Shown in pieces: positions 15,956-44,671 of a DNA stretch of 64,000 nucleotides. How positions within the stretch are numbered: position 1 is the first letter of the stretch; each line of letters begins with the position of its first letter. A model generated the notes under the pieces. The model did not search any database and had not been told where the DNA came from. It worked only from the letters and a program-made list of their open reading frames with translations. The translations under genes and the position numbers were made by a program. Source of the stretch: Crossiella sp. SN42 (GTDB lineage Bacteria > Actinomycetota > Actinomycetes > Mycobacteriales > Pseudonocardiaceae); NCBI RefSeq assembly GCF_023897065.1, contig NZ_JAMHIV010000018.1, forward strand, positions 1 through 64,000. Reading direction: 5' to 3'.

Positions 15956-15972
15956 GGTTCCTCCGCGGTGGG

Positions 15973-16008: not shown

Positions 16009-16013
16009 GGTGC

Positions 16014-20000: not shown

Positions 20001-23000
20001 AAGACCTGCCGCACCAGGTCGATCCAGGTGGTCCCGGTCAGCTCGACGCCGACCGGCACGGTGTTGAGGTGCATGCCGCGCACGGTCTCGCCACCGCTGG
20101 TCTCAAGGCGGCCGTTGCACACCAGGCCGGTGTGGAAGCGGGGCGAACCGCTGAGCACACTGAGGGCCTTGAGATGCGCGGTGAACAGCACGCTCTTGAG
20201 CGAGACCCCGGCCACCACGGCCAGCGCGCGCAGGCCGGGTTCGAGGTCGCCGATCGGCACGCCGATCTTGTAGGCCGTCTCGCCCTGCTCCGGGTCCGCG
20301 GCCCAGCCCTCGGGCAGCTCGACCCGGTCGAACCGGTTCAGGCGGTCCCGCCAGAACTCGCGGTCCCCGGATTCGCTGAGGGAGCGCCGTTCCAGCGCGA
20401 TGTAGTCGGCGAACCGGACACTGTGGACGGTCGGTGCGGCCGGTTCGCGGCCGTCGCGCAGGGCGCGGTAGTCGGCCATCAGCTCGGTGATCAGGGAGTG
20501 GTGGCTCCAGCCGTCCAGGATGGCGTGGCATTCGATGAAGGAGAACGTCCAGCGGTCCTCGGCGGTCTGGTGCGCGTGGAACCGCAGCATCGGCGCCTTG
20601 GTGACGTCGAACGGCGTGGCGCGGGTGGCGGTGATGAAGCGCTGGATCTCGGCGTCCGGGTCGGCGGTGTGCCGGAGGTCGTGGTAGCCGACCTCGATGG
20701 TCCCGGCCGGGTGCACCAGCTGGAGGGGTTCGCTGAAACCGTTGAGATTGAAGGAGGTGCGCAGGATCTCGTGCCGCTGGGCCAGCAGTGCCGCGGCCTG
20801 GCGCAGGGCGGGCAGGTCGAACGGGCCGTCGTCGTTGATCGGCAGCAGGGTGATGTTGTGGTACGGGCTTTCCTCGCTGTCGGCGATCATCTGGTAGACC
20901 ATGGCCGCCTGCACCATGGAGATCGGATAGGCGTCGACCAGCCCGGCGGGCAGCGCGCGCCGATCGGCCGGGGACAGCAGCGCGAAGGCTTCGACCCGTT
21001 GTTCCTCCGCATTGTCCACAGTGGACTGGACGCGGGTTTCGCTGAACCGGGCCAGTTCCTCGACGGTCTGGTGCAGCAGCAGGTTCTGCACGGACAGGTC
21101 GATGCCGCGCGGGCGGAGCGCGCCGACCACCCGGATGGCGCGGATGGAGTCGCCGCCGAGGGTGAAGAAGTTGTCCCGCACGCCGACCTCGGGCACGCCG
21201 AGCACCTCGGCCCAGGTCTCGGCGATGACCTGTTCCACCGGGTTGCGCGGGGCGACCCGCTCGGCGGAGTCCTGGCCGCGGTGGGTGTCCGGGTCGGGCA
21301 GGGCGGCGTGGTCGATCTTGCCGTTGACCGTGAGCGGGAACTCGGCCACCGGGACGAACAGCGCCGGGACCATGTAGGCAGGCAGCGTCCGGCCGAGGTG
21401 TTCGCGCAGCTCGGTGACCGCTACCGACCGGCCGGTGAGGTAGGCGACCAGCCGGGATCGGTGGGCCAGGACCAGGGCCTTGTCCACCGAGGGGTGGGTG
21501 GACAAGGCCGCCTCGATCTCGCCGGGTTCGATGCGGTGGCCGCGGATCTTGAGCTGGTTGTCGGCGCGGCCGAGGAACTCCAGGTCGCCGTCCGCGCGGT
21601 AGCGGGCCAGGTCTCCGGTGCGGTACATGCGCGCGCCCGGGGTGGTGGCGTAGGGGTCGGGGCCGAAGCGGTCGGCGGTGAGCGCGGGCCTGCCGAGGTA
21701 GCCGCGGGCCAGGCCGGGGCCGGAGACGTGGACCTGGCCGGGCACCCCGATCGGCACCGGGTTCAGCTCCCCGTCCAGCACGTACAGCCGGAGGTCGCGG
21801 AGCGCGCCGCCGACCGGGCTGCGCTGCTCCCCGTCCAGGTCCGCCCGGCCGATCGGCCGGTAGGTGACGTGCACGGTGGTCTCGGTGATCCCGTACATGT
21901 TGACCAGCTCGGGCCGCTGGTCGCCGAAGCGGTAGAACCAGGGCGCCAGCTCGGTCACGTCCAGGGCCTCGCCGCCGAAGACCACGGTGCGCAGGGCGAG
22001 CGCGTCGGCAGGCAGGCCCGCCTGGGTGACCGCCTCGACCAGGCCGCGGAAGGCGGAGGGGGTCTGGTTGAGCACGGTGACCTGTTCGCTGATGAGCAGG
22101 TCGAGGAAGTCCTGCGGGGAGCGGGAAATCTCGTAGGGCACCACCACGGCGGTGCCGCCGTGCAGCAGCGCGCCCCACAGTTCCCAGACGGAGAAGTCGA
22201 AGGCGTAGGAGTGGAACAGGGTCCACACGTCGGTGGGGCCGAAGCCGAAGTCCGGTTCGCAGGCGCGCAGCAGGCGCAGCACGTTGGCGTGGGTGACCTG
22301 CACGCCCTTGGGGCGGCCGGTGGAGCCGGAGGTGTAGATAACGTAGGCGAGGTTGTCCGGCGTGGCCAGGTTTTCCGGGTCGGTGTCCGGGTGGCCGGGC
22401 TGGTCCACCGGCAGGCAGGTGACCCCGGGCAACGCGGCGTCGGTGACCGCGAGGGAGACCTCGGCGTCCTCCACCAAGTAGGCCAACCGGTCGGCGGGCG
22501 CGGCCGGGTCCAGCGGCAGGTAGCCCGCGCCGGACTTGAGCACCGCGAGCAGGGCGACCACCAGGTCCGGGCCGCGGTCCAGGCAGACGCCGACCGGGTG
22601 GTCCGGTCCGGCGCCACGGGCGCGCAGCGCGTGGGCGAGGCGGTTGGCCCGTGCGTTCAGCTCGGCGTAGCTGAGGTGCTGGCCGCGGTGGCGCAGCGCG
22701 GTCGCCCCGGGGACGCGGCGGACCTGGGCCTGGAACACCTCGTGCAGGCACTCCGCGGCGGGGAAGGTCCTGGCCGCGCCCGCCCACGGGCCGAGCAGCT
22801 GGGCGCGTTCCGGTGCGGTGAGCAGGTCGAGCGCGCCCACTCGAACGGTCGGCTGGGCGGCGATGCTGGTCAGCAGCTGGGTGAAGTGACCGATCATCCG
22901 GCGGATCGTGCTCGCGTCGAACAGCGCGGTGGCGTACTCGAGCTGGCCGGTCAGCGAGCCGTCGGGGTGGGCGGCCAGGGCCAGGCCGAGGTCGAACTTG

Positions 23001-24382
23001 GCCGCGCTCCAGGCGACCGGTTCCTGTTCGGCGCGCAGGCCGGGCAGCTCGGTGGGGGTGCCGCTGGTGAGCTGGAAGGCGACCTGGAACAGCGGGTTGC
23101 GGGACGGGTCGCGTTCGGGGGCCAGCTCGTCCACGATGCGCTCGAACGGGGTGTGCTGGTGCGCGTAGGCGGTCAGGGCGGTCTCCCGGACCCTGGCCAC
23201 CAGGTCGCGGAAGGTCGGGTCGCCGGAGAGGTCGGTGCGCAGCAGCACGGTGTTGACGAACAGGCCGACGAGGTGCTGGAGCTCGGCGCGGTCGCGACCG
23301 GCCACCGGGCTGCCCACCACCACGTCGTGTTGTCCGGCGTAGCGGCCGAGCAGCAGCTGGAAAGCGGCCAGCAGCACCATGAACGGGGTGGCGCCCACCT
23401 CGCGGCCGGTGCGCAGCAGCGGTTCGACCAGCCGGGCCGGCAGGGTGAAGGTCTCGGTGGCGCCGCGGCTGTCCCGGACCGGGCCTCTGGGCCGATCGGT
23501 CGGCAGGGCCAGCGGGGTAAGTCCGGCGAGGGTCTTGCGCCAGTGCGCGAGCTGCTCGGCCAGGCGCGGGCCGGTGAGCTGTTCGCGCTGCCAGGCGGCG
23601 TAGTCGGCGTACTGCACCGGGACCGGGGGCAGCGGGGAGGGCATGCCGGCGGCGAGGGTGGCGTAGAGGCGGTCCAGCTCGGTCAGCAGCACCGACTCCG
23701 ACCAGCCGTCGGCGGCGATGTGGTGGGTGGTGATCAGCAGGATCGTCTCGTCCGCGGCGAGCCGGATCAGCAGGGCGCGGATCGGGTGCTCGGTGGCCAG
23801 GTCGATCGGACGGCGGCCGTCGGCCTCGATCAGCTTGCCGATCCGGGCCTCGGAGTTCGCGCCGCGCAGGTCGGCCTCGCGCCAGGCGATCGGGCCGGGC
23901 GGGTCGATGATCTGCACCGGCTCACCGTCCACAGTGGAGTACCGGGTGCGCAGGATCTCGTGGCGGGCCACGATCTGCGCCAGCGCGGCGCGCAGCGCGA
24001 CCACGTTGACCAGGCCGCGCAGCCGCAGCCGCAGCGGCATCAGGTACTCGGTGCCGCCGGGCTGGATCTGGTCCAGCACCCACAGCCGCCGCTGGGCGAA
24101 CGACAGCGGCAGCACGCCGTCCCTGGGCACCGGGGTGATCCCGTGCTCCGGTGCGGCCGGGGCGAGGCCGCGCAGCCTGCGCTGGAGCAGCTCCGCGCGG
24201 GAGATCGAGCGAGGGCCAGTCCCCGAAATCCCGTCCACGAGAGTCGTGATCGAGGTGGTTCCTGGCGGTGCGGCCGGACCGCCCTCATACAGGGCGTATT
24301 CGGGCGGTTCGGTCGTGCCGCCAGGGACCACCTCGGCGCGGCTATCGTGGACGGGATTTTGGGGACTGGCCCTCTTGCTCAT
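17000..24382 (-). CDS. NRPS1: C-A(Thr)-T-C-A(Asn)-T-TE
   Basis: 2460-aa two-module nonribosomal peptide synthetase with thioesterase. C1 has HHIAADGW near residue 220. A1 has FDFSVWE near 728; hand-aligned code DFWNVGMVH(K), essentially the Thr code. T1 is GGDSIRA near 1077. C2 has ECHAILDGW near 1288 (first His of HHxxxDG is Cys). A2 has FDLPVTS near 1786; code DLTKIGEVG(K), Asn type. T2 is GGHSLSV near 2134. The TE has GWCGGSQ near 2266, with Cys instead of the usual Ser nucleophile. The termination domain makes this the last synthetase of the line. ATG 24382 follows AGGAAGG. Residues about 4-57 are encoded by a 164-bp palindrome and match no NRPS domain. Confidence 0.93.
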   Translation of the reverse strand: MSKRASPQNPVHDSRAEVVPGGTTEPPEYALYEGGPAAPPGTTSITTLVDGISGTGPRSISRAELLQRRLRGLAPAAPEHGITPVPRDGVLPLSFAQRRLWVLDQIQPGGTEYLMPLRLRLRGLVNVVALRAALAQIVARHEILRTRYSTVDGEPVQIIDPPGPIAWREADLRGANSEARIGKLIEADGRRPIDLATEHPIRALLIRLAADETILLITTHHIAADGWSESVLLTELDRLYATLAAGMPSPLPPVPVQYADYAAWQREQLTGPRLAEQLAHWRKTLAGLTPLALPTDRPRGPVRDSRGATETFTLPARLVEPLLRTGREVGATPFMVLLAAFQLLLGRYAGQHDVVVGSPVAGRDRAELQHLVGLFVNTVLLRTDLSGDPTFRDLVARVRETALTAYAHQHTPFERIVDELAPERDPSRNPLFQVAFQLTSGTPTELPGLRAEQEPVAWSAAKFDLGLALAAHPDGSLTGQLEYATALFDASTIRRMIGHFTQLLTSIAAQPTVRVGALDLLTAPERAQLLGPWAGAARTFPAAECLHEVFQAQVRRVPGATALRHRGQHLSYAELNARANRLAHALRARGAGPDHPVGVCLDRGPDLVVALLAVLKSGAGYLPLDPAAPADRLAYLVEDAEVSLAVTDAALPGVTCLPVDQPGHPDTDPENLATPDNLAYVIYTSGSTGRPKGVQVTHANVLRLLRACEPDFGFGPTDVWTLFHSYAFDFSVWELWGALLHGGTAVVVPYEISRSPQDFLDLLISEQVTVLNQTPSAFRGLVEAVTQAGLPADALALRTVVFGGEALDVTELAPWFYRFGDQRPELVNMYGITETTVHVTYRPIGRADLDGEQRSPVGGALRDLRLYVLDGELNPVPIGVPGQVHVSGPGLARGYLGRPALTADRFGPDPYATTPGARMYRTGDLARYRADGDLEFLGRADNQLKIRGHRIEPGEIEAALSTHPSVDKALVLAHRSRLVAYLTGRSVAVTELREHLGRTLPAYMVPALFVPVAEFPLTVNGKIDHAALPDPDTHRGQDSAERVAPRNPVEQVIAETWAEVLGVPEVGVRDNFFTLGGDSIRAIRVVGALRPRGIDLSVQNLLLHQTVEELARFSETRVQSTVDNAEEQRVEAFALLSPADRRALPAGLVDAYPISMVQAAMVYQMIADSEESPYHNITLLPINDDGPFDLPALRQAAALLAQRHEILRTSFNLNGFSEPLQLVHPAGTIEVGYHDLRHTADPDAEIQRFITATRATPFDVTKAPMLRFHAHQTAEDRWTFSFIECHAILDGWSHHSLITELMADYRALRDGREPAAPTVHSVRFADYIALERRSLSESGDREFWRDRLNRFDRVELPEGWAADPEQGETAYKIGVPIGDLEPGLRALAVVAGVSLKSVLFTAHLKALSVLSGSPRFHTGLVCNGRLETSGGETVRGMHLNTVPVGVELTGTTWIDLVRQVFAEEVAVWPHRRFPLPEMQREWGGGASLVETAFTYLDFHVLDARRIESAGVVDVSPNEFALDVWTFPGALFLAARPERISRANGERLARLYRRILELMAADPLGAARNNGLDEDETARLLSFANGEPVAYPDLCLHELFEQQVSRTPDAVALRCPDGSTVDYSALNARANRIARHLRDLGVGQESRVGILLRRGPDLVAAMLGVLKAGAAYLPLDPAHPAQRLAGLLAEARAEVVLAESATAPLVSGHKTVLLDQTDLTKLSTVDLARTATPESLAYIIYTSGSTGTPKGVMIEHRNLVNYVLWCLGAYTPLRGKGSPLYSSVAFDLPVTSVFPALLTGQPVTITADDGTPGIDALVDALEHGEFGLLKLTPSHLAVLNQSLSPDAIRRATGRIIAGGEELVRDMVSSWAQHAPDTVVDNEYGPTETTVGCSWLEATPDRLEPGVLPIGKPIANTVMRVLDANLELVPVGVAGELYIGGAQLARGYVERPELTAARFIPDPYAGQAGARLYRTGDLARYRADGVLEFAGRVDHQVKIRGYRIELGEIEAALHRQVPLQDVTVRVHTAPSGDKELIAYLVPADGTTLDLAALPGSLADILPDYLVPQAFLELDELPLTANGKVDTARLPQPELSRSAARFQAPRTAVENILARAWAEALRLPRIGVHDSFTELGGHSLSVMRIIVKLREEHGIRLSFRDFYEHRTIAELARVIGGTAQSDVDTLDAVVWLRRGGSRPPLFCVHPGSAHWFTQLAEHLGPDQPVAAFEWPGLSRQCPPPETVHQIAELNLAQLRRLQPTGPYRLLGWCGGSQITTEMTRQLRAEGEQVTFMLLDPALDSHDRANMHEFMTRFRRAEALLAELATAVAEEVPGIQDRAVGVLEQIVDDGRIDPPVPGDEFWPSRVRVWRELLATRLNYRHEPCPGRLHLIAGDELAAGEHEVAVGVDFTDYTQRWAELATGGLDVHRVSGNHLGVLRPPHVGEVARVLTRLMATPEDAQKDVN
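24211..24374. repeat. 164-bp imperfect palindrome within the NRPS1 5' coding end
   Basis: Left arm starts GAGGGCCAGTCCCC (24211-24224) and the right arm ends with its exact complement (24361-24374). Pairing continues inward with few mismatches: ATCCCGTCCACGA against TCGTGGACGGGAT, CGAGGTGGTTCCTGGCGGT against its near-complement, ACCGCCC against GGGCGGT, and a centre near 24290. It is translated as the unusual N-terminus of NRPS1. It is similar in size to the 166-bp element at 1986-2151 but different in sequence. It could be a MITE-like insertion or an mRNA structure limiting translation. Confidence 0.85.
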
Positions 24383-24523
24383 CGTTCGCCTTCCTGTCTA
24401 CCGGTCGGCCGATCAGGGGATAGCCTGCCGAGCGCGCGGGGTGCGGGAGCAGAGTCAGCGCGGTACCTCTGTCGGCAGGTGGGACTGCCTGCGTGGGTGC
24501 CGGTCCTTCTCTGTGGAGGCGGG
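24383..24523. promoter_or_regulatory. Divergent promoter region, NRPS1 / MFS exporter
   Basis: 141 nt separate the divergent starts of NRPS1 and the MFS gene, so promoters for both must lie here or in the palindrome next to it. I could not assign -35/-10 boxes with confidence. Confidence 0.4.
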
Positions 24524-25783
24524 GTGGGCGCGAGAAGCATCGGGCGCATGAGCGAAGAGGTGCCGCCGCTGCGGCGCAATCGGGACTTCCTGTTGCTGTG
24601 GTCGGGTTCGGCGGTGTCCAGCCTCGGCGCGAACGCCTCCAGCGTGGCCTATCCCCTGCTGGTGCTGGCGCTGACCGGGTCGCCGGTGGACGCGGGCCTG
24701 AGCGGGTTCGTCGCGCTGCTGCCCCAGCTGATCTGCCAGGTGCCGGCCGGGGCGTTGGTGGATCGGTGGAACCGGAAGCGGGTGATGATCTGGTGTGACG
24801 TCCTGCGCGCGCTGGCCATCGGCACGCTGGCCGCGGCGCTGGTGCTGGATGCGCTGACGTTGCCGCACATCCTGGCCGTCGGGTTCACCGAGGGCGTGCT
24901 GACCGTGACGTTCAAGATCGCCGCGGCGGCCGCGGTGCCGAACGTGGTGCATCCGAGCCATCTGACCTTCGCGTTGTCCCGCAACGAGGCCAGGGAGCGG
25001 GGCGCGGCGATGCTGGGGCAGCCGCTGGGCGGGATGCTGTTCGGGCTGGGGCGGGCGGTGCCGTTCCTGTTCGACGCGCTGACCTACCTGGTGTCGCTGG
25101 TCTCGTTGTTGTTGATCCGCAAGGACTTCCAGGCTTCCCGGAAGCGGCAGCCGGTGGACCTGTCGGCCGGGATCACCTGGTTGTGGCGGCAGCCGTTCCT
25201 GCGGATGACCACGTTCCTGGTGGCGGGCAGCAACTTCCTGTTCCGGGCGCTGTTCCTGGTGGTGATCGTGATCGCCGCGGACTACGGGGCCTCGCCGACG
25301 CTGGTGGGGGTGATGTTCGGGCTGGCTGCGGTCGGCGGGGTGCTGGGGTCCCTCGCCGCGCCCGCGCTGGAGCGGCGGCTGTCCATGCGGGTGGTGGTGG
25401 TCGGGGCCAACTGGGCCTGGGGACTGCTGGTGCCGATGGTGTTGCTGGTGCCCAATGCCTATGTGCTGGGCGCGGTGTACGCGCTGATGTGCTTCGTCGG
25501 CCCGGTGTGGAACGTGGCGATCTCGGCCTACCAACTGGCGGTCACCCCGGACCACATCCAGGGGCGGGTGCTGGGGGCGGCGGGGATGATCGCGTTCGGC
25601 GCGGTGCCGCTGGGGTCGTTGCTGGGCGGGTTCGCGCTGGAGTGGATCGGGGCGCGGGCGACGGTGTGGGCGCTGGCGGTGTGGATGATCGGGCTGGCGG
25701 TGCTGGCCACGGTGAGCCCGGCGGTGCGGGACGCGCCCAGTCTGGCGCGGGCGGTGGCGGAACGCGAGGCGGTCGTCCGGTGA
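24524..25783 (+). CDS. MFS exporter (EntS/MFS_3 type)
   Basis: About 419-aa major facilitator protein with about 12 hydrophobic segments. The start RNRDFLLLWSGSAVSSLGANAS and the loop VDRWNRKRVMIWCDVLRA (motif A-like, DRWNRKR) are typical of the EntS/MFS_3 exporters that secrete siderophores and nonribosomal peptides. Its place between the two NRPS operons suggests export of, or self-resistance to, the cluster product. GTG 24524 is chosen for GGAGG four bases upstream; ATG 24548 (411 aa) is the alternative. It is convergent with the LanB-like gene, with a terminator between. Confidence 0.88.
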   Translation: MGARSIGRMSEEVPPLRRNRDFLLLWSGSAVSSLGANASSVAYPLLVLALTGSPVDAGLSGFVALLPQLICQVPAGALVDRWNRKRVMIWCDVLRALAIGTLAAALVLDALTLPHILAVGFTEGVLTVTFKIAAAAAVPNVVHPSHLTFALSRNEARERGAAMLGQPLGGMLFGLGRAVPFLFDALTYLVSLVSLLLIRKDFQASRKRQPVDLSAGITWLWRQPFLRMTTFLVAGSNFLFRALFLVVIVIAADYGASPTLVGVMFGLAAVGGVLGSLAAPALERRLSMRVVVVGANWAWGLLVPMVLLVPNAYVLGAVYALMCFVGPVWNVAISAYQLAVTPDHIQGRVLGAAGMIAFGAVPLGSLLGGFALEWIGARATVWALAVWMIGLAVLATVSPAVRDAPSLARAVAEREAVVR

Positions 25784-25841: not shown

Positions 25842-28082
25842 TTACTGGGGATCGGCGACCGCGACGAAGCGGAGTTCGGCGGTGTAGGACTCGCCGTGGT
25901 GGTCGGGCAGCCAGGCCTGGTCCGGGGTGGGCAGCATCTCGGTGAGGGTGAGCTGGCCGGCCGGGTCCTTGCGGGCGAGGCGGCGGATGGCCTTGGCCAG
26001 GATGGTGAGGTAGACCGGGCTGTCGAAGTCGACGTAGAACGGGCGGGGTTCGGTCGGGCAGGTGACGAAGACGAACCTGGGCAGGCGGTGGGTTTCCCGC
26101 CACTGGCGCAGGCGGACGAACCGGCGCGGTTCGGACTTCTCCTCGGCCGCGGTGATCTCGACAGCGGGGAAGCGCCAGGTCTCCCTGGTGACCACCAGGT
26201 CGTCGATGGTGATCCGCGGGGTGTGCGGGGCGTCCGCGGTGAGGCGGAACAGGTCCATGGCCAGGGTGGTCAGCACGTGGCCGAAGACGTCGACCACCGG
26301 GAACCGGGTGCCGTCGGGCAGCACGGCCGACAGGGTGTCGTGGCGTTCGACCAGGATGTCGGCGCTGGCATGGGTTCGCGGGCGGGCCGGGTCTGCGGTG
26401 TGGTCGACCAGGGCGACGTAGTGGTCCTCGGGGCGGACCAGCGTCTGGCGGGTCCTGGCTGACAGGCGGGAGCGGTGTTCCTTGGGCAGCAACGGAAGCA
26501 GCCGCGGTCCGGGGTGGTCGCGGGTGGTGCGGGCGAGCAGCTCGGCCTGGTCTGGGTGCTGGTTGACGAACAGCGAGGAGCCCAGGCTGTTGGTGGCCAG
26601 GTGGAGCTCGCCGAGGACGAGCTGGTCCCCGGTGAGCAGGATGTCGGGGCTGAGGTAGCGGGCCGCGGTCCAGCCGGGTTCCCGGTTGCCGAAGGCCAGC
26701 TCCACCTGATTCCCAATGTCCTTTGTGGACCTTCGAACCCTGCTGGCGTCTGCCGGGTCGAGGATGGTCTGCCAGCGGCGCTGGAACTCCTGTTGCAGCT
26801 CGGTGGCGTCCTGGACGGCGGCGCCGTGCAGAATGGGCATGCAGGCGAACCAGAACTCGGCCAGGTTGACCGGGCCGTTGGCGGCCAGCCGGTCGAAGAC
26901 CTCCTCGGCGCGCTGCAACACGCGGTCGGCGAGGGTGGCGGTCAGCCAGTTCGCGCTGGCCAGCAACAGCGGCAGTGGGTCCAGCGCGTCCAGGACGCGG
27001 CGGCCTGCGGTGGCGGTGGCGGTGCGGCGGCAGTCGGCGTAGACCAGGGCGCGGCAGGGTGCGGTGCCCGCGGACTTCTCCCGGACCGCGGCGGTGTCGG
27101 TGCAGGCGAGGAAGTCCTGCTCCAGCCGAGCGAGCGCGGCGGCCAGGGTGTCCGCGTCGGTGGCGGCCGCGACCTGGGACCGGCCTTGTTCCAGCAGGTC
27201 CAGTGCGGCTTCGGCGCGGATGCGCTGGGGTTCGTCCTCGACGGTGGCCAGCCAGGAGCGCAGCCAGCGTTCCGGGTGCGCGTCGGCGGGCACCTCCAGG
27301 CGCCACACCAGCCAGCGGCGGCCGACCAGCTCGGTCAGCAGGGCTGGAACGTCCAGGTCCGGGTTCGCGCGGGCCAGGTGGTGCGCGGAGCGGGTGCCGT
27401 CGCACTGGGTCAGCAGGCGGTGCTGGTCGGTGGTGATCGGCTGCGGTGGGCGGCCGGGAATGGTGACCTCGGTCTGTCCGATGTGGACGAACGGGACGCG
27501 GCGGGGCGCGATCCACTGGCGCAGTCCGGGTTCGAGGGTGCGGGCCAGGGTGTCGATGGACCAGCTGGCGAAGTAGACGGTGGTGTCGGCGATCAGGGAG
27601 TCGCCGGGGTCAACCGCGATGTCGGGCTGATCGAGGTTCCAGTGCCCCCAGCCGACCGGGCCGAAGAAGCCGATGGTGTCGTTCTTGACGCAGAATCGCT
27701 GCCAGTAGTGCGCCACCAGCTCCTCGCGCTGGCGGGGCATGCTGGTGCGACCGGTCGCGGTGGGGGTCCAGTCCAGGAACGGCTTGATGCCGGTGGTCAG
27801 CACCGGGCGGTTCTGCCAGGCCACCGCGGCCCGGAAGTCGGGCCGGGCCGCGATGTCCTGGAGCTGGCGCGCGCTCCGCACCGCGGCTTCGTGGTAGGTC
27901 TCCTCGAAGGCGGTCCAGTCCACTCCGGACAGTGCCACGTCCTGGTCGAACTTGTCCGCGGCCTCGGCGAGTCCGTCCGGGGCGAGCCGCAGCACCCCGT
28001 TGGCCGGGAAACCCGGTCCGCGCAGGGCGAACTGGTCCCACAGCCGCCAGGTCCGGTCCAGGCGCACCTCCACCGGCCTCAC
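25842..28082 (-). CDS. LanB-like glutamylation-domain protein 1 (split LanB/PEARL-like)
   Basis: 746-aa protein of the Lant_dehydr_N family. Evidence: the RFCVKNDTIGFFGPVGWG block near residue 135 in place of the LanB RxTPFGxF block; a winged-helix-like stretch near residue 240 (QHRLLTQCDGTRSAHHLA); and the C-terminal series LVVTRETWRFP, LRQWRETHRLPRFVFV, LTLTEMLP, WLPDHHG, ELRFVAV, which follows the LanB pattern GRVVLSPARW...WR...LPR.V...L.E...W..G..E. It lacks the SpaB_C elimination domain, so it has the size of split LanBs (TbtB) and PEARLs, which use aminoacyl-tRNA. GTG 28082 overlaps the carrier protein stop by 4 nt. Substrate is unknown and no precursor peptide gene is nearby. Confidence 0.78.
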   Translation of the reverse strand: MRPVEVRLDRTWRLWDQFALRGPGFPANGVLRLAPDGLAEAADKFDQDVALSGVDWTAFEETYHEAAVRSARQLQDIAARPDFRAAVAWQNRPVLTTGIKPFLDWTPTATGRTSMPRQREELVAHYWQRFCVKNDTIGFFGPVGWGHWNLDQPDIAVDPGDSLIADTTVYFASWSIDTLARTLEPGLRQWIAPRRVPFVHIGQTEVTIPGRPPQPITTDQHRLLTQCDGTRSAHHLARANPDLDVPALLTELVGRRWLVWRLEVPADAHPERWLRSWLATVEDEPQRIRAEAALDLLEQGRSQVAAATDADTLAAALARLEQDFLACTDTAAVREKSAGTAPCRALVYADCRRTATATAGRRVLDALDPLPLLLASANWLTATLADRVLQRAEEVFDRLAANGPVNLAEFWFACMPILHGAAVQDATELQQEFQRRWQTILDPADASRVRRSTKDIGNQVELAFGNREPGWTAARYLSPDILLTGDQLVLGELHLATNSLGSSLFVNQHPDQAELLARTTRDHPGPRLLPLLPKEHRSRLSARTRQTLVRPEDHYVALVDHTADPARPRTHASADILVERHDTLSAVLPDGTRFPVVDVFGHVLTTLAMDLFRLTADAPHTPRITIDDLVVTRETWRFPAVEITAAEEKSEPRRFVRLRQWRETHRLPRFVFVTCPTEPRPFYVDFDSPVYLTILAKAIRRLARKDPAGQLTLTEMLPTPDQAWLPDHHGESYTAELRFVAVADPQ

Positions 28083-28327
28083 CCCTGGGCCGGTTCGAGG
28101 TCCACCACACTCGCCAAGTCGGCGGGCGAGGGGTAGGCGAACACCAGGGCCACCGGCACCTCCGCGCCCAGGGACTCCTGGATGCGGGCGGTGATCTGGA
28201 ACGCGGCCAGGGAGTCACCACCGGCCTCGAAGAAGTCGCTGCCGGTGTCCAGGGTGGCGTCGCCCAGGGTTTCGCGGTAGATGGCGGCGATCAGTTCGGG
28301 CACGTCTACCTTGAGGTTGCTGGTCAC
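28079..28327 (-). CDS. Stand-alone peptidyl/acyl carrier protein
   Basis: 82-aa carrier protein with the phosphopantetheine site DFFEAGGDSLAAFQ; the Ser lies near residue 39. Helices I-III match PCP proportions. GTG 28327 overlaps the dehydratase stop and its own stop overlaps the next LanB-like start, each by 4 nt. It is presumably loaded by the stand-alone A domain two genes upstream, giving a carrier-bound amino acid for use by the LanB-like proteins or by NRPS2. Confidence 0.9.
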   Translation of the reverse strand: MTSNLKVDVPELIAAIYRETLGDATLDTGSDFFEAGGDSLAAFQITARIQESLGAEVPVALVFAYPSPADLASVVDLEPAQG

Positions 28328-29229
28328 GGGAGTCCTTTCGGTGTGGTGTTTCCGCCGGAGACGATCGCGACGGTGTCGGCGTGCCACCCGGCGCGCAGTG
28401 CGCCCGCGAAGGCGACCGCCCCGCTGGGTTCGGCGTTGACTCCGTTGCGCCGCAACAGGTCGAGCGCGTGGTTGATGTCCTCATCGGACACCGCGACCAG
28501 GTCGTCGACCCGGTGCTGGATGATGGGGAACGGGACCTCGCCGGGGCGCTGGCCGCGCAGGCCGTCGGCGACGGTGTCCGGCGGCGGGAGCTCGACCGGG
28601 TGGCCGGCGGCCAGTGAGCGGGCGTAGCGGCGGCAGGCGGCCGGTTCGACGCCGATCACCCGGACCGGGTGGTCCAGCGCGGCCAGGCACGCGCCCGCGA
28701 GCAGGCCACCGCCGCCGGTGGGCACGAAGAGGGCGGCGGTGTCCGGCGCGTCGGTCAGGATCTCCAGGGTCACCGTGCCCGCGCCCGCGACCACCAGGTC
28801 GTGGTCGGAGGAGGGCAGCAGGAACGCGCCGGTGCGGGCGGCCAGGTCGCGGGCGTGGCGTTCGCGGGCGGCCACTCCCCCGGGCACGGCGACGACGGTC
28901 GCGCCCAGGTCACGGATCTTGGCCGCCTTGGCCTGGCTGGCGGCCTCGGCCATGACGACGGTGACGGGGATGCCGAGGCGGGCGCCGAGGGTGGCCACCG
29001 CGATGCCGTGGTTGCCGGAGGAGCCGGTGACGACCGCGGTGGCCGGGGTGCCGAGCAGGGCGTTGGCCGCGCCGCGGAACTTGAAGGAGCCGCCGCGCTG
29101 CTGGTGCTCCGCCTTCAGCCGCAAGCCCGGTTGGCACGGCAGCAGCGGGGTGGGCCTGATGTGGTCGGCGATTCGCTCGGCGGCGGCGCGGACGTCGGCG
29201 CGGCCCAGGCGCAGGGTGGGCGCGGTCAT
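28324..29229 (-). CDS. PLP-dependent threonine/serine dehydratase-like enzyme
   Basis: 301-aa fold-type II PLP enzyme. It has the Schiff-base Lys in GGSFKFRGA (near residue 50), the phosphate-binding SGNHG, the glycine loop PTGGGGLLAG and C-terminal SGGNTTP. There is no regulatory ACT tail, as in catabolic threonine dehydratases and serine racemases. In this cluster it could make a 2-oxo acid or dehydroamino acid precursor, racemise Ser, or act on a diamino acid. ATG 29229 overlaps the A-domain stop and its stop overlaps the carrier protein start (4 nt each). Confidence 0.82.
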   Translation of the reverse strand: MTAPTLRLGRADVRAAAERIADHIRPTPLLPCQPGLRLKAEHQQRGGSFKFRGAANALLGTPATAVVTGSSGNHGIAVATLGARLGIPVTVVMAEAASQAKAAKIRDLGATVVAVPGGVAARERHARDLAARTGAFLLPSSDHDLVVAGAGTVTLEILTDAPDTAALFVPTGGGGLLAGACLAALDHPVRVIGVEPAACRRYARSLAAGHPVELPPPDTVADGLRGQRPGEVPFPIIQHRVDDLVAVSDEDINHALDLLRRNGVNAEPSGAVAFAGALRAGWHADTVAIVSGGNTTPKGLP

Positions 29230-30668
29230 CGGGCCAGGGCCTTGCGGTCGGTCTTGCCGGTGCTGGTGGTGGGCAGGCGGTCGATCCGGGCGAACCGGCG
29301 CGGCATCAGGTGTGGCGGCAGGGTTTTGCCGAGGTGGGCGCGCAGTTCGGCGTCGGTGGTCGCCGCCAGGTCGCCGGTGAGGTGGGCGACCAGGTGCACC
29401 CGGCCGCGGTCGTCGGTGGCCGCGGTGAGCACAGCCCCGGTGACCGCGGGATGGGTCAGCAGCGCCGATTCCACCTCGGCCGGGTCGACCCGGTAGCCGC
29501 GGATCTTGACCTGGCGGTCCAGCCGGCCCAGGTACTCCAGGCCGTTGTCGGTGCGGCGGGCCAGGTCGCCGGTGCGGTACCGGCGGGAGCCGGGCTCGCC
29601 GAAGGGGTCGGGGCGGAAGCGGTCGGCGGTCAGCGCGGGGCGGTTCGCATAGCCGCGGGCGAGGCCGATGCCGCCGAGGTGGATCTCGCCGATGGCGTTG
29701 TCGGGCACCGGGTTGCCCTGCTCGTCGAGCAGGTGCGCGGTGACGCCGTGGATCGGGTCGCCGATGTGGTCGGCGCCGAGGTCCGGGGTTGCCGGGACGT
29801 GGTGCCGGGTGGAGGTCATGGTGCATTCGGTGGGGCCGTACTGGTTGACCAGGTCGCCGGTGATCAGCTCGCGGCCGCCCGCGGTGAGGAACGGGCGCAG
29901 GGACTCGCCGCTGGCGACCACCAGGCGAAGTCCGTCGAAGGATCCTTGGTACTGGGCCAGGAAGGTGAGGAACGAGGGCGTCACGCTCAGCACGGAGTTG
30001 ACCTGGTAGCGCCGGATGACCTCGGCGAACCCGTTGGCGCGCAGCAGGTCGGCGCGTGGGGCCAAGACCAGGCGGCCACCAGCGAGCAGTGGGGCGAAGG
30101 TGTCGCGGATCGAGGCGTCGTAGCCGAGCGGGGCCAGCTGCACGGCGACCGTGTCCGGGCCGAGGCGGTAGTCGCGGACCAGGAAGCGCAGGTAGGAGTC
30201 CAGGCCGCGGCGTTCGATGAGGACGGCGTTGGGGGTGCCGGTGGAGCCGGAGGTGTGGCTGACGTAGGCCAGGGATCGTGGTGGCACCGCGGCAAGTGGG
30301 GCGGTGGACGGGGCGAGCTGGTCGAGCAAGGTGGTGGGGCCGGTGAACGGGAGGCCGGTGTCGCTGGTGGTGAGCAGGTGGGTCGCGCAGCCCAGCAGGG
30401 TGGCGAGGCGTTGGGGTGGCTGGTCGAGGTCCAGGGTGAGGAACGCGCCGCCGGCGTGCAGCACGGCGGCCATGGCCACCACGGCGTCGACGGATCTGGG
30501 TACGGCGATGGCGCACACCTGCTCGGGGTGCACGCCGTCGGACACCAAGCATTGGGCCAAGTGGACGATTCGGTTGCGGAGTTCGCCGTAGGACACCTGG
30601 TGATCCGGGGTGATGATCGCGGTGGCCTCGGGCGGGTGGTTGAGGATGTCGTCGACGAACCCGGTCAT
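29226..30668 (-). CDS. Stand-alone NRPS adenylation domain
   Basis: 480-aa A domain without C or T domain. Core motifs: SHTSGSTGTPNAVLIE (A3), GYDASIRDTF (A4), NQYGPTE (A5), RYRTGDLARR (A7), GRLDRQVKIRGYRVDPAEVE (A8), STGKTDRKAL (A10, catalytic Lys present). Hand-read code D-A-R-S-V-S-Q-M-T-(K) matches no code I recognise. It probably loads the discrete carrier protein encoded two genes downstream. ATG 30668 overlaps the LanB-like stop and its own stop overlaps the dehydratase start (4 nt each). Confidence 0.9.
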   Translation of the reverse strand: MTGFVDDILNHPPEATAIITPDHQVSYGELRNRIVHLAQCLVSDGVHPEQVCAIAVPRSVDAVVAMAAVLHAGGAFLTLDLDQPPQRLATLLGCATHLLTTSDTGLPFTGPTTLLDQLAPSTAPLAAVPPRSLAYVSHTSGSTGTPNAVLIERRGLDSYLRFLVRDYRLGPDTVAVQLAPLGYDASIRDTFAPLLAGGRLVLAPRADLLRANGFAEVIRRYQVNSVLSVTPSFLTFLAQYQGSFDGLRLVVASGESLRPFLTAGGRELITGDLVNQYGPTECTMTSTRHHVPATPDLGADHIGDPIHGVTAHLLDEQGNPVPDNAIGEIHLGGIGLARGYANRPALTADRFRPDPFGEPGSRRYRTGDLARRTDNGLEYLGRLDRQVKIRGYRVDPAEVESALLTHPAVTGAVLTAATDDRGRVHLVAHLTGDLAATTDAELRAHLGKTLPPHLMPRRFARIDRLPTTSTGKTDRKALAR

Positions 30669-32962
30669 ACCGCACCGCCGGTCTGGTCCACCGCGACGAA
30701 GCGGAGCTCCGAGGTGTAGCGGTTGCCCTGGTCGTCGGTGAGCCAGGTTTGTTCCGGGTTGGGCAGCATCTCGCTGATGGTGAGCCTGCCGTCCGGGTCG
30801 GTGCGGGCCAGGCGGCGGGCGGCCTTGGCCAGGATGGTGACGTAGACCGGGCTGTCGAAGTCGACGTAGAACGGCCGGGGTTCGGCAGGCGAGGTGACGA
30901 AGACGAACCGGGGCAGGTCCAGCTCTTCCCGCCACTGCCGGGCCCGGACGAAGCGGCGGGACTCGGTCTTCGCCGCGGCGAAGGCCAGGTCCGCGGCCGG
31001 GATCCGCCAGGTCTCGCGCGCGATGATCATGCGGTCGACGGTGATCCGTGGACCGTGATCAGCGTGGGGGCGCAGGGAGAACCGGTCCATGACGCGGTTG
31101 GTGAGGGCGTTGCCGAAGACGTCCAGCAGCGGGAACTCGTTGCCGTCGGGCAGGATGAGCAGCAGTTCGCCGTCGCGGTCGACCACTTCGACGTCGGCGC
31201 TGTTGAGGGCGCGCGGGTTGTGCGGGTCGGCGGTGTAGTCGACCATGCCGATGAAGTAGTCCTCTGGCCGCACCAGCGCTGGGCGGCTGCGGGTGGACCA
31301 GCGCGGCGGCTGTTCCTTGGGCAGCATGGGCATCACCCGGGGGCCGGGGAAGTCCCTGGTGGTCTCGGCGAGCAGTTCGGCGATGTCGGGGTGCTGCATG
31401 GCGAACAGCGAGGCGCCCACGGTGTTCATGGCCACGTGCAGCTCACCGAGCACCAGCTCGAACTCGCCGCGGGCGACCGCTTCGGCGTTCTCGGCCAGGA
31501 TCAACACGTCGGGGCTGACGTAGCGGGCGATGTTCCAGGCCCGCCCTGGTTCGCCGAACTCCGCGCGCACCCGGTCCGCGATGTCCACAGTGGACAGTCG
31601 AACGCGTCGGACACCCTCGGGGGCGTTGATGATCCTGGCCCAGCGTGCCTGTAGTTCGGCCTGGATGCGGTCGATCTCGGCTGTGGAGTCGGGGTGCGGC
31701 ACCGGCAGGCACTCGAACCAGAGCGCGCCCAGGTCGACCCGGCCGTGCCGGTCCAGCAGCTTCCGGTGCGCGACGCGGATGCGCTCGGTCATCGCCTCGG
31801 CGAAGCGGTTGGTCAGCCAGCGGGCCGCGGTCAGGCACAGGGCGAGCGGGGTGAGCTCGGCCAGGACCGCGGCGCCGAGGGTGGCGGTGGCCGAGCGGCG
31901 GCAGTCGGCGTAGACCAGGGAGCGGCAGGGTGCGGTGCGGCTGTTCTTGGCGCGCACGGCCGCGGTCTCGGTGAGGGTGGCGAAGTCTTGTTCCAGTGCG
32001 GCCATCGCGGCGGACAGGGCGGCGGAGTCGCCGTAGGCGTCGTGGATGCGTTGTTTGGCCTGTTCCAGCACGGCCAGCTTGGCCAGTGCCCGCTCGCGCA
32101 CCTCGGGATCGCCGACTCGCTCCACTGTGGACCGGAGGTGCTGCTCGGGGTGCGCGCTGGTCGGCACTTCCAGCCGCCACACCGCCCACCGCCGTCGTAC
32201 TATGTCCTCGATCCCGGCCAGCACCTCCGCCTCCGGCCGGTTGAGCTGTGCGGCCAGCTCGGCCGGGGATCGGGTGCCGTCGCAGCGCAGCAGCAGCTCG
32301 CGCTGGTCCGCGGTGAGCGGCTGGGCTGGGCGGCCGGGCAGGTGCACGGAGTCGGTGGCGATGCGGATGAAGGAGACCCGGCGGGGCGGGATCCAGCGGC
32401 GCAGTGCTGGATCCTCGCCGAGCACACGGGCCAGGGTGTCGATGGCCCAGCTGGAGAAGTACACGGTGGACTCGGCGATCAGGCCGGTGCCGGGGTCGAC
32501 CGTGACACCGGACTGAGCGAGGTCCCACCGGCCCCAGCCGACCGGGCCGAAGAAGCCGATGGTGTCGTTCTTGACGCAGAACCGCTGCCAGTAGTGCGCG
32601 ACCAGCTCCTCCCGCTGGCGGGGCATGCTGCTGCGGTTGTCCGCGCTGGGTGTCCAGGCCAGGAAGGGTTTGATGCCGGTGTCCAGCACGGTGCGGTTCT
32701 GCCAGGCCACCGCGGCGCGGAAGTCCGGCCGGGCCGCGATGTCCTGGAGCTCCCGCGCGGTGCGCACCGCGGCCGCGCCGAACTCCTCCTCGAATGCGGT
32801 CCAGTCCGCGCCGGTGAGCTGCTCGTCGAACTTGTCCGCGGCCGCGGCGAGTCCGTCCGGCGCGAGCCGCAGCACCCCGGTGGCGGGGAAACCGGGTCCG
32901 CGCAAGGAGAACTGGGACCACAGCCGCCAGTCGCCGGTGGGTAGGAACACGTTGTCGGACAT
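30665..32962 (-). CDS. LanB-like glutamylation-domain protein 2 (split LanB/PEARL-like)
   Basis: 765-aa paralogue of the protein at 25842-28082. Long blocks are the same, for example PDFRAAVAWQN, GIKPFL, SMPRQREELVAHYWQRF, KNDTIGFFGPVGWG and PFYVDFDSPVY. Like its partner it has the Lant_dehydr_N fold without an elimination domain. It begins the tightly overlapping set LanB2, A, dehydratase, PCP, LanB1. ATG 32962 is chosen by alignment with LanB1 (DWRLWSQFSLRGPGF); an in-frame ATG at 32998 overlaps the carbamoyltransferase stop. A palindrome copy GTCCACAGTGGAC lies at 31583-31595. Confidence 0.78.
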   Translation of the reverse strand: MSDNVFLPTGDWRLWSQFSLRGPGFPATGVLRLAPDGLAAAADKFDEQLTGADWTAFEEEFGAAAVRTARELQDIAARPDFRAAVAWQNRTVLDTGIKPFLAWTPSADNRSSMPRQREELVAHYWQRFCVKNDTIGFFGPVGWGRWDLAQSGVTVDPGTGLIAESTVYFSSWAIDTLARVLGEDPALRRWIPPRRVSFIRIATDSVHLPGRPAQPLTADQRELLLRCDGTRSPAELAAQLNRPEAEVLAGIEDIVRRRWAVWRLEVPTSAHPEQHLRSTVERVGDPEVRERALAKLAVLEQAKQRIHDAYGDSAALSAAMAALEQDFATLTETAAVRAKNSRTAPCRSLVYADCRRSATATLGAAVLAELTPLALCLTAARWLTNRFAEAMTERIRVAHRKLLDRHGRVDLGALWFECLPVPHPDSTAEIDRIQAELQARWARIINAPEGVRRVRLSTVDIADRVRAEFGEPGRAWNIARYVSPDVLILAENAEAVARGEFELVLGELHVAMNTVGASLFAMQHPDIAELLAETTRDFPGPRVMPMLPKEQPPRWSTRSRPALVRPEDYFIGMVDYTADPHNPRALNSADVEVVDRDGELLLILPDGNEFPLLDVFGNALTNRVMDRFSLRPHADHGPRITVDRMIIARETWRIPAADLAFAAAKTESRRFVRARQWREELDLPRFVFVTSPAEPRPFYVDFDSPVYVTILAKAARRLARTDPDGRLTISEMLPNPEQTWLTDDQGNRYTSELRFVAVDQTGGAV

Positions 32963-32982: not shown

Positions 32983-33903
32983 TCAGGCCGTGCACCATTC
33001 CAGGACGGCGCGGGCGCTGTGGTACTTGTTCTCCGCCTGGGCGAAGGCGATGCCGGCCGGACCGTCGAGCACCTCGGCGGTGACCTCCTCGCCGCGGTGC
33101 GCGGGCAGGTCGTGCATGAACACCGCGCCGGGGCAGGACTCCATCAGCCGACTGTCCACTTGGAACGGTGCGAACCGCGCGCGCCAGTCCGGGTCGGGTT
33201 TGCTGGTGCCGGTGGTCTGCCAGCGGGTGGTGTAGACGACGTCGACCTCGGGCAGGTCGGCCAGGTCGTGCCGCTGCTCGATCCGGCCGTCGCCGCGTTT
33301 GGCGCTGATGGCGCCGCGTTCCAGGAAGCTCGCCGGGACGCCGTAGCCGTTCGGGGTGCGCAGGTGCAGCTCGGTGCCGGGGAAGCGGGTCAGGGCGAGG
33401 GACAGCGCGGTGGCGGTGTTGTTGCCCTCCCCCACGTACAGCACGCGCAGGCCTTCGACCCGGCCGAAGTGGCGGGTCATCGTGGTGAGGTCGGTGAGGG
33501 CCTGGGTGGGGTGTTCCGCGGCGGTCATCGCGTTGATCACCGACATGCGTTGCTGCGCCGCGTACTCGCGCAGTTCCCGTTCCGGGCCTGCGGTGCGGGC
33601 GACCAGGACGTCCAGCATCCCGGAGAGCACCGCGCCGGTGTCGGCCACCGACTCGCCGGTGTTCTCCTGGAGGTCGCCGGGCCCGTAGGTGATCAGCTGG
33701 GCGCCCAGGCGCAGCGCGCCGGCGGAGAAGGCGGTGCGGGTGCGGGTGGAGGTGCGCCGGAACAGCACGGCCACCACCAGGTCCCGCAACGGTTTTGCCC
33801 CTTCGAGCCGTCCTGCGGAATAGTCCGCGCCGCGTTGGACCAGCCAGCGCAGGTCTTCCTCGGACAGGTCGTCGATGGAGATCAGGTGCCGTCGGTCGGC
33901 CAT
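32983..33903 (-). CDS. OTC-like carbamoyltransferase, probably acting on 2,4-diaminobutyrate
   Basis: 306-aa aspartate/ornithine carbamoyltransferase family protein. The carbamoyl-phosphate loop STRTRT is near residue 52, HPTQALTDL near 140 and YVGEGNNTATAL near 163. The ornithine-binding HCLP of true OTCases reads HDLPAHRGEEVT here (Cys to Asp), so a different amine acceptor is likely. The upstream gene makes diaminobutyrate, and a Dab N-carbamoyltransferase is known from padanamide biosynthesis. The predicted product is 2-amino-4-ureidobutyrate. Carbamoylation of diaminopropionate, as by VioL in viomycin, is the alternative. ATG follows GAGGAG. Confidence 0.8.
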   Translation of the reverse strand: MADRRHLISIDDLSEEDLRWLVQRGADYSAGRLEGAKPLRDLVVAVLFRRTSTRTRTAFSAGALRLGAQLITYGPGDLQENTGESVADTGAVLSGMLDVLVARTAGPERELREYAAQQRMSVINAMTAAEHPTQALTDLTTMTRHFGRVEGLRVLYVGEGNNTATALSLALTRFPGTELHLRTPNGYGVPASFLERGAISAKRGDGRIEQRHDLADLPEVDVVYTTRWQTTGTSKPDPDWRARFAPFQVDSRLMESCPGAVFMHDLPAHRGEEVTAEVLDGPAGIAFAQAENKYHSARAVLEWCTA

Positions 33904-33913
33904 GGTCGGCTCC

Positions 33914-35203
33914 TCACCGGGTGGTGTGCAGGGCGTCGCGCAGCACGTCGAGGCCGCGGTCCAGCCGGGCGATGTCGATGGTCAGCGGCGGCAGCACCTT
34001 GACCACCTCGTCGTGGCGGCCGCACAGCTCCACGATCAGGCCGTGCTCGAAGGCGTGCCGCTGCACCCGGTCCGCGCGCTCCGGGCCACCGGCCTGGGCG
34101 AGGTCGATGCCCAAGGCCATGCCCAGGCCGCGGGTGCTGATCACCGGTTCGGCCAGTTCGGTGCGGAAGCGGTCCAGGCGGCGGCTGGCCACGGCGAGGT
34201 CGGTGTGGAACTTGGTCTGCCGCCACAGGTCCAGGGCCGCGGTGGCGGCGACGAAGGCGAGCTGGTTGCCGCGGAAGGTGCCGGTGTGCTCGCCCGGTTC
34301 CCACACGTCCAGGTCGCGGCGGAACAGGGTCAGTGACAGCGGAAGCCCGTAGCCGCCAATGGACTTGGACACGGTGACCAGGTCGGGCACCACGCCGGCA
34401 TGCTCGAAGCAGAAGAAGGTGCCGGTGCGGCCGCAGCCGGCCTGGATCTCGTCGAAGATCAGCAGGATGCCGTGCCGCTCGGTGAGCGCGCGCAGGCTGC
34501 GCAGCCAGTCCGGGGAGGCCGGGTAGATGCCGCCCTCCATCTGCATCGGCTCCACGATAACCGCGGCCGGGACCTCGAACCCGGAGGACGGGTCGGCGAG
34601 CATCCGCTCCAGGTATCCAATCGAGTCGAATGTCCCTTGTGGACCGTCCTCATAGGGCACAAAGGTCACTTCTGATGGCCCGATGCCACCGGCGCGGCGG
34701 GCCCGGCGGCTGCCGGTGACCGCGAGCGAGCCGCGGGACATGCCGTGGTAGGCGCCGGTGAAGGCGACCACGCCGGTGCGGCCGGTCGCCTTGCGGGCCA
34801 GCTTCAGCGCCGCCTCCACCGCGTCCGTGCCGGTCGGTCCGCAGAACTGGATCTTGTAGTCCAGGTCGCGCGGCCGCAGCACGGTCTCGGCGAAGGCGCT
34901 GAGGAACTCGCGTTTGGCCACGGTGTGCATGTCCAGGCCGTGCACGATCCCGTCGGCGGCCAGGTACTCGGTGAGACGGCGTTTGATGAAGTCGTTGTTG
35001 TGCCCGTAGTTCAGGGTGCCCGCGCCGCAGAAGAAGTCGATGAAGACCCGGCCGTCCTCGCCGTGCAGCTCGGCGCCCTTGGCGCGGTGGAAGACGATCG
35101 GGAACTTCCGGCAGTAGCTGCGCACCTCGGACTCGAGGTCCTGGAACACCGAGAAATCGGTGGCCGCGGTGTGCGTGCCGGGGTGGTGCGCGGTGACGGT
35201 CAT
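33914..35203 (-). CDS. Diaminobutyrate-2-oxoglutarate aminotransferase (EctB/Dat-like)
   Basis: 429-aa class III PLP aminotransferase. It has FFCGAGTLNYGHNN near residue 58, FCGPTGTDAVEAALKLAR near 120, FDEIQAGCGRTGTFFCFEH with the PLP Asp near 245, and the Schiff-base Lys in TVSKSIGGYGLPLSL. These blocks are characteristic of EctB/Dat enzymes that convert aspartate 4-semialdehyde and glutamate into L-2,4-diaminobutyrate. ATG 35203 follows GAGAGG. No ectA or ectC lies nearby, so this Dab is for the peptide, not for ectoine. The gene lies between NRPS2 and the carbamoyltransferase. Confidence 0.88.
   Translation of the reverse strand: MTVTAHHPGTHTAATDFSVFQDLESEVRSYCRKFPIVFHRAKGAELHGEDGRVFIDFFCGAGTLNYGHNNDFIKRRLTEYLAADGIVHGLDMHTVAKREFLSAFAETVLRPRDLDYKIQFCGPTGTDAVEAALKLARKATGRTGVVAFTGAYHGMSRGSLAVTGSRRARRAGGIGPSEVTFVPYEDGPQGTFDSIGYLERMLADPSSGFEVPAAVIVEPMQMEGGIYPASPDWLRSLRALTERHGILLIFDEIQAGCGRTGTFFCFEHAGVVPDLVTVSKSIGGYGLPLSLTLFRRDLDVWEPGEHTGTFRGNQLAFVAATAALDLWRQTKFHTDLAVASRRLDRFRTELAEPVISTRGLGMALGIDLAQAGGPERADRVQRHAFEHGLIVELCGRHDEVVKVLPPLTIDIARLDRGLDVLRDALHTTR

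Positions 35204-35224: not shown

Positions 35225-44671
<9,447 letters not shown>

Follow-up and report, generated by a model that had tools for sequence, protein, structure and literature searches.

The window analysed here, a stretch of 64,000 nucleotides (nt) from Crossiella sp. SN42 (contig NZ_JAMHIV010000018.1), carries on its minus strand, between two non-ribosomal peptide synthetase (NRPS) genes, a five-gene cassette (25842-32962) that is real and widespread. The genes stand in the order LanB1, adenylation (A) domain, pyridoxal phosphate (PLP) enzyme, peptidyl carrier protein (PCP) and LanB2, with four successive 4-nt start-stop overlaps; the genes, their order, coordinates and overlaps had been given in a preliminary description made from the sequence of the window, and all were confirmed (Table 1). 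Judged by their sequences, both LanB-like proteins are of the peptide aminoacyl-tRNA ligase (PEARL) type and not of the dehydratase type, and the cassette is a variant of the NRPS-linked PEARL systems that are already known as a kind. We propose that it could be a carrier-protein-based PEARL system that primes the NRPS, a reading to which we give somewhat less than an even chance.

PEARL-type residues in LanB1 and LanB2

PF04738 is the sole Pfam match in each of the two LanB-like proteins, with no elimination domain, and was found in all 25 aligned LanB relatives. The preliminary description had called this the full glutamylation-domain pattern, a label that masks residues of the PEARL type not shared by ordinary LanBs. 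Excerpts of papers on BhaB7 and TglB name the residues that bind the CCA end of the tRNA and those that phosphorylate the acceptor carboxylate with ATP: Glu542, Glu801 and Arg803 of TglB and Asp558, Glu575, His577, Glu813 and Arg815 of BhaB7 for carboxylate phosphorylation, and Tyr205 and Arg208 of BhaB7, together with Arg34, for contact with the 3' end of the tRNA and for transfer (PMC12945691, PMC11962472). By motif and spacing, the counterparts in LanB1 are Y124 and R127 (tRNA) and R21, D485, E507, H509, E752 and R754, and LanB2 has the same residues; a loss of tRNA and active-site residues from both proteins, an outcome that the preliminary description had raised against its own reading, is seen in neither.

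Across 132 cassette-type sequences, counted after the duplicate-genome rows L040, L043 and L055 had been dropped, D485, E507 and H509 are each present in 131, E752 and R754 in 128 (with four gaps), Y124 in 131, R127 in all 132 and R21 in 126 (five gaps). The odd sequence is that of locus L048, in which most active-site residues are gone; here a LanB1-type protein of genome G066 stands beside a shortened A-domain match, and the locus is probably a decayed cassette.

Six ordinary full-length LanBs served as controls, three of them from the genome of the window (G000:C1:622856, C4:143832 and C34:292587). They keep Y124 and R127, lack D485 and H509 in all six cases and lack E507 in four; since they share Y124 and R127, and mostly R21, these three positions do not discriminate. 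At the position of R754, all six have V or A in a local-pair alignment, and five show the motif E-I-(V/A)-V-P; a second multiple alignment is misleading at this position, placing the ordinary LanBs on an unrelated Arg past the domain. Three Salinispora PEARL-like proteins, which we take to come from a lymphostin-type locus, keep D485, H509 and R754, with E, D or H at the position of E507. All PEARL residues compared are present in SnaE from the sna locus, both of which are candidates whose gene layout fits Stackebrandtia nassauensis.

The preliminary description had suggested a comparison with known structures. The AlphaFold2 model of LanB1 (predicted local distance difference test, pLDDT, 91) matched MibB (E 3.9e-23) and TbtB (E 1.6e-22) in Foldseek, along with MadB, GodF and NisB and no other structure under E 0.001, at 10-16% identity. 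LanB1 thus has the fold of NisB, MibB and TbtB, whereas the carboxylate-activating residues differ from those of such glutamylating LanBs and an elimination domain is absent. In a tree rooted at its midpoint, relatives of LanB1 and of LanB2 fall into separate clades, each of 28 rows (with support of 99 and 78, respectively), inside a group of NRPS-linked LanBs that includes the candidate SnaE but none of the six ordinary LanBs; the single LanBs of Actinomadura and of genome G131 group with LanB2, and the exact placement of SnaE is unsure because of long branches. We consider a tRNA-dependent ligase function likely for the LanB-like proteins.

Conservation of the cassette

A search for the five-gene set in other genomes had been proposed in the preliminary description. 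The best 80 of 126 matches from a LanB1 scan of the genome collection represent 64 distinct loci, a sample that leans towards close relatives of LanB1 because the best matches were taken. These loci span Streptomyces, Streptacidiphilus, Kitasatospora, Salinispora, Amycolatopsis, Saccharothrix, Actinosynnema, Actinokineospora, Kibdelosporangium, Actinomadura and Crossiella. The arrangement can be judged in the 51 of the 64 in which at least 5.6 kb follow the LanB match, the other 13 being too short, and 45 of these 51 have all five genes in order; the arrangement is therefore not due to chance. Three of the six exceptions are Amycolatopsis loci with LanB1, the PLP enzyme and LanB2 together, two (L106 and L110) were matched via LanB2 close to a contig end, and the last, from Actinomadura (L113), has an A domain, a PCP and a LanB.

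Within the window's family, a LanB1 relative (E <= 1e-20) was found in 35 of 150 genomes. The cassette-type A domain (E <= 1e-110) is present in 11 genomes, all among these 35, and in 5 of 46 genera. Relatives of the PLP enzyme (E <= 1e-50) occur in 22 genomes; identity is at least 63% in 12, namely the 11 A-domain genomes plus G011, a fragmented genome that carries a LanB fragment, and the remaining ten have matches of 45-50% identity only, which we take for other enzymes. The cassette-type A domain and PLP enzyme (at least 63% identity) were found solely in genomes with a LanB relative, so the parts are co-conserved, in counts that include related species and are less independent than they appear. 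Two Streptomyces plasmids (NZ_CP023408.1 and NZ_CP139176.1) have the full annotated cassette beside NRPS genes, and cassette-type LanB genes are present in the unannotated record of another Streptomyces plasmid (CP042595.1).

In the family of Salinispora, a LanB1 relative (E <= 1e-20) was seen in 150 of 354 genomes, some as neighbouring pairs about 37% identical. An excerpt of a published paper gives about two thousand NRPS or polyketide synthase (PKS) clusters that encode a LanB-annotated enzyme (PMC11212132). NRPS-linked PEARLs may be far commoner than the one characterised case, and many clusters with genes labelled 'lantibiotic dehydratase' probably make neither a dehydroamino acid by that enzyme nor a lanthipeptide.

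A free-standing A domain, PCP and PLP enzyme

The A-domain code DARS[AVC]SQMT is present in 63 of 66 rows and is nearly invariant across genera (the 66-row alignments of the A domain and the PLP enzyme keep repeats from duplicate genomes). NRPS codes elsewhere, in Streptomyces and Salinispora clusters, differ from those of the window, which we take to specify Asn-(Gln-like)-(diamino-like)-Thr-Asn; as the cassette code is near-invariant, a single residue appears to be fixed across clusters whose other modules differ. Both NRPS 1 and NRPS 2 start with a condensation (C) domain, so that neither supplies a loading module; the obvious candidate for one is the free A-PCP pair, the sole unfused A and thiolation (T) domains found in the window. 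The GGDSL site of the PCP is conserved in 65 rows.

The PLP enzyme scores under every NCBIfam cut-off encountered, and its GSFKxRGA motif (with the catalytic Lys), GSSGNH motif and PSSD loop are conserved in the 66 rows. Its best PDB match by alignment is 1v71, a serine racemase as matched by species in an excerpt of PMC6424897, which gives the same loop as SSSD in aspartate racemase, HPNQ in human serine racemase and PPY in that of S. pombe. The cassette loop, P-S-S-D, has two of the three serines of aspartate racemase plus the D, a partial likeness to that enzyme. Together with an Arg at pocket position 239 of the cassette A domain, where known Glu codes have Lys, the loop points to a starter residue, X, that would be acidic.

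Of the 73 loci scanned that span at least 12 kb, 20 have a peptidase E gene near the cassette, for example at L122:17843-18583. The peptidase E family acts on N-terminal aspartyl peptides, and such a neighbour would fit an Asp starter.

Comparison with known systems

NRPS-linked PEARLs are common, and in the literature examined SnaE is the only one with a known role, which depends on a ureido-forming C domain. Excerpts of the paper and preprint that, by title or abstract, concern NRPS-linked LanB proteins state that SnaE adds Thr in threopeptin biosynthesis (PMC11212132) and that the ureido-forming C domain of the sna pathway leaves a free carboxylate, which SnaE extends with this Thr (PMC10769383, PMC11212132). 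The preliminary description had overlooked NRPS-linked PEARLs as a kind. It knew of no described pathway with the five-gene set, and a term search of an open-licence library found none among the papers listed.

Like SnaE in Stackebrandtia nassauensis, the cassette enzymes are NRPS-linked LanB-like PEARLs with no elimination domain and no precursor seen, and they share all compared PEARL residues and a large clade with the candidate SnaE. The sna cluster has one PEARL with a ureido-forming C domain and, in the gene list of PMC11212132, no free A-PLP-PCP set, whereas the window has two PEARLs, a free loading unit and a PLP enzyme, and no EHHxxHDG motif. VEHHLVHDG was found in the candidate sna locus, and none of the five C motifs of the window fits the ureido-forming EHHxxHDG; a scan of the window together with 206 loci, of which 88 span 12 kb or more, showed this motif only in the candidate sna locus, with a pattern that misses some C domains (in A. 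azurea, two were found versus four NRPS modules). Ureido chain reversal as in sna was rejected, because EHHxxHDG was not found in the scanned cassette clusters. The cassette is a defined five-gene unit of actinobacteria that ties a PCP and its own A domain to two PEARLs.

With TglB, AmmB2 and BhaB7, the PEARLs of ribosomally synthesized and post-translationally modified peptides, the cassette enzymes share the tRNA and carboxylate-phosphorylation residues by motif, whereas the ribosomal scaffold peptide that those enzymes use was not seen at the cassette. A protease-inhibitor pathway of Streptomyces lividans likewise sets a tRNA-utilising enzyme alongside an NRPS-like protein, a C-minus NRPS, and its title and the start of its abstract make no LanB link apparent (PMC10548850).

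Proposed mechanism and alternative explanations

In the proposed priming system, the free A domain and PCP would make up the loading module absent from the C-first NRPS and would hold one fixed starter, X, which the PLP enzyme would supply or epimerise. If X has an acidic side chain, PCP-bound X would retain one free carboxylate. LanB2 and then LanB1 would each activate a carboxylate by phosphorylation and join it to the amino group of an aminoacyl-tRNA, and two tRNA-borne amino acids would be added opposite to the direction of NRPS growth. The chain would thus be reversed via the acidic starter and not via a urea as in threopeptin; as no EHHxxHDG motif was found in the cassette clusters scanned, we suggest the starter itself as the source of the second carboxylate. 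It is possible, if doubtful, that the PCP replaces the ribosomal scaffold peptide altogether, with the two PEARLs building, one after the other, a short aminoacyl-tRNA-derived arm on the free carboxylate of the acidic starter and the NRPS extending the thioester end. If true, one molecule would grow in two directions from two amino acid activation systems. The pairing suggests hybrid peptide building in soil bacteria by enzymes of the tRNA-ligase type and a free-standing NRPS loading unit, and the cassette allows a direct test of the ligation of tRNA-borne amino acids onto carrier-bound residues.

Fusions of LanB-type enzymes to thiolation or thioesterase domains have already been mentioned, in an excerpt of PMC11212132. 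We found eight C-A-T-LanB frames of about 1870-2130 amino acids (aa) in the window's and Salinispora's families (L051, L052 and L218-L223), and Pfam confirmed this architecture in all four of the frames tested; PEARL-like domains can therefore sit directly behind a T domain.

Several observations weigh against the priming proposal. The A codes of all eight fusions are D(A/L)LWLGGTF, presumably Val-like, so that in the fused branch an acidic side chain of the module residue would not be the acceptor. The acidic nature of X is argued from one pocket residue and one loop; that Arg239 is acid-binding is our assumption. In A. azurea, the only Amycolatopsis exception checked, the A-PCP pair lies about 21 kb from LanB1-PLP-LanB2 on the same contig, and in Actinomadura DC4 an A domain, a PCP and LanB2 stand together without LanB1 and without a close relative of the PLP enzyme (PLP relatives in Actinomadura DC4, G131 and G066 have just 38-48% identity); because of these split sets, the five parts need not act on one molecule. 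As to the PEARL assignment, the residues were matched by motif and spacing to published positions, not by alignment to the BhaB7 or TglB sequences, and the BhaB7 tRNA contacts Gln201 and Arg197 are not conserved in LanB1 by spacing. A sequence search of structures with LanB1 alone found no LanB structure, and a search with the family profile found TbtB as the only LanB.

The split set of A. azurea, in which LanB1-PLP-LanB2 and A-PCP prove separable, also fits a rather unlikely but still substantial alternative, namely that the PEARLs act after release, each adding one tRNA-borne residue to a C-terminal or side-chain carboxylate of the finished peptide, and that the A domain, PLP enzyme and PCP only supply the starter. 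A thioesterase (TE) domain ends NRPS 2, and known PEARLs use free C-terminal carboxylates (PMC12945691, PMC11962472). Action after release explains neither the position of the A and PCP genes amid the LanB genes in 45 of 51 loci nor the A-PCP-LanB2 set of Actinomadura; moreover, ordinary modules could add two C-terminal residues. The Actinomadura locus, the smallest form, in which A, PCP and LanB still stand together, would fit a use of aminoacyl-PCP instead of aminoacyl-tRNA as the amino donor, with the PEARL-like enzymes coupling a non-proteinogenic, PCP-held X to a carboxylate, and the fusion of PEARL-like domains behind T domains points the same way. We regard this as improbable, given that the residues for the tRNA CCA end, identified by motif, are kept almost without exception (Y124 and R127, above).

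The preliminary description had left open a ligase or a dehydratase module; its carrier-linked, tRNA-dependent ligase option stands, and the dehydratase reading was rejected on residues and tree. On the dehydratase reading, a LanB would use Glu-tRNA to glutamylate a Ser or Thr held on the PCP, and glutamate would then be eliminated by the PLP enzyme or a partner to give a dehydroamino acid, in keeping with a PF04738 match without an elimination domain and with the presence, between the LanBs, of a PLP enzyme from the serine/threonine dehydratase group. It is made quite improbable by the PEARL carboxylate-activating residues in both LanBs, mostly absent in the six ordinary ones, by a tree that joins these proteins to SnaE, a ligase, by a PLP loop partly like that of aspartate racemase and by the lack of a PF14028 match in a Pfam scan of 18 proteins of the window (no search for PF14028 by itself was made in the remaining genome). 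We give very little credence to a hidden precursor that would belong to a conventional PEARL or lanthipeptide pathway lying beside an unrelated NRPS. Such a pathway would account for the LanM gene that adjoins the cassette in 25 of the 73 scanned loci (12 kb or longer) and for a relative of a 65-residue peptide in 15 of them, but the window yielded no relative of LanM, the sole match in its own genome being on another contig, and the cassette-type A domain, PLP enzyme and LanB co-occur. The gaps from NRPS 1 to LanB2 measure just -4 to 21 nt, and a hidden precursor is disfavoured because the intergenic check for open reading frames (ORFs) leaves no room for one in the operon, in agreement with the preliminary description, which had seen none. 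No precursor gene was found in that check, with no ORF of at least 20 aa wholly inside 24383-24600 and with out-of-frame ORFs inside genes lying outside the search. Four small ORFs occur at 44.6-45.1 kb, three of which overlap the MbtH gene; the fourth, of 45 aa (44675-44812, minus strand), does not, and the same-genus stretches stop short of it.

Genes around the cassette

Table 1. Positions of the cassette genes and of neighbouring features in the window
Feature	Position	Strand	Details
LanB1, PEARL-like ligase	30665-32962	minus	765 aa; PF04738 188.7 bits; alternative upstream ATG at 32998 possible
A domain, free-standing, code DARSVSQMT	29226-30668	minus	480 aa; PF00501 and PF13193; TIGR01733 336 bits (cut-off 317)
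Fold-type II PLP enzyme, serine racemase / threonine dehydratase group	28324-29229	minus	301 aa; PF00291 231 bits
PCP, free-standing, GGDSL site	28079-28327	minus	82 aa; PF00550 52.9 bits
LanB2, PEARL-like ligase, LanB1 paralogue	25842-28082	minus	746 aa; PF04738 107.8 bits; same residues as LanB1; separate clade
Carbamoyltransferase, ornithine/aspartate type, like ornithine carbamoyltransferase (OTC)	32983-33903	minus	PF02729, PF00185; under cut-offs of matched NCBIfam models
Diaminobutyrate aminotransferase	33914-35203	minus	TIGR02407 574 bits (cut-off 552)
NRPS 1, C-A-T x3, C domain first	35225-44671	minus	codes DLTKVGEVG, DAWQFATID, DVDENGNVT
NRPS 2, C-A-T-C-A-T-TE	17000-24382	minus	codes DFWNVGMVH, DLTKIGEVG
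MbtH-like protein	44851-45060	plus	80% identity over 59 aa to annotated MbtH protein
SbnA-type 2,3-diaminopropionate synthesis enzyme	45066-46079	plus	TIGR03945 399 bits (cut-off 350)
SbnB-type 2,3-diaminopropionate synthesis enzyme	46043-47083	plus	TIGR03944 395 bits (cut-off 327)
Fe(II)/2-oxoglutarate dioxygenase, GntD/VioC-like	16014-17000	minus	PF02668; NF041363 224 bits, under cut-off 345
Major facilitator superfamily (MFS) exporter	24548-25783	plus	PF07690, PF05977
Second regulator of conserved pair, this or shorter reading	47134-47817	minus	49% identity (174 aa) to the second of the response regulators next to the S. fungicidicus cassette
First regulator of conserved pair	47706-48317	minus	61% identity over 205 aa; weak response-regulator matches under cut-offs

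On the 5' side of the cassette, the operon holds the genes for the OTC-like carbamoyltransferase, the diaminobutyrate aminotransferase and the trimodular NRPS 1, from which the adjoining MbtH, SbnA and SbnB genes diverge. On the 3' side, the exporter gene on the opposite strand is followed by the bimodular NRPS 2 with its thioesterase. Further downstream, on the strand of the cassette, 15440-16177 encodes a protein that resembles aspartate kinase in its C-terminal part (best score 64 bits, under cut-offs) and is possibly linked to the supply of aspartate semialdehyde for diaminobutyrate.

In four cluster types, (E/D)CHxxLDG replaces HHxxxDG as the motif of the last C domain; these are represented by NRPS 2 of the window, A. 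azurea (L201), L204 and L124. By our assignment of the codes, the module before this domain is one for Thr in the window, A. azurea and S. fungicidicus and one for Ser in Salinispora, and the domain could be a modifying C domain.

Wherever a LanM gene adjoins the cassette or a LanB in the scanned loci, two regulators accompany it; examples are L122:9529-17769 (an S. fungicidicus plasmid), L072-L105, L203, L047 and L048. A relative of a large LuxR regulator was seen in 19 of the same 73 loci. The window retains just the regulator pair, and its genome has a LanM-LuxR pair of this type on a different contig (G000:C8:32704). The LanM-type locus may provide a peptide signal by which the NRPS cluster is controlled.

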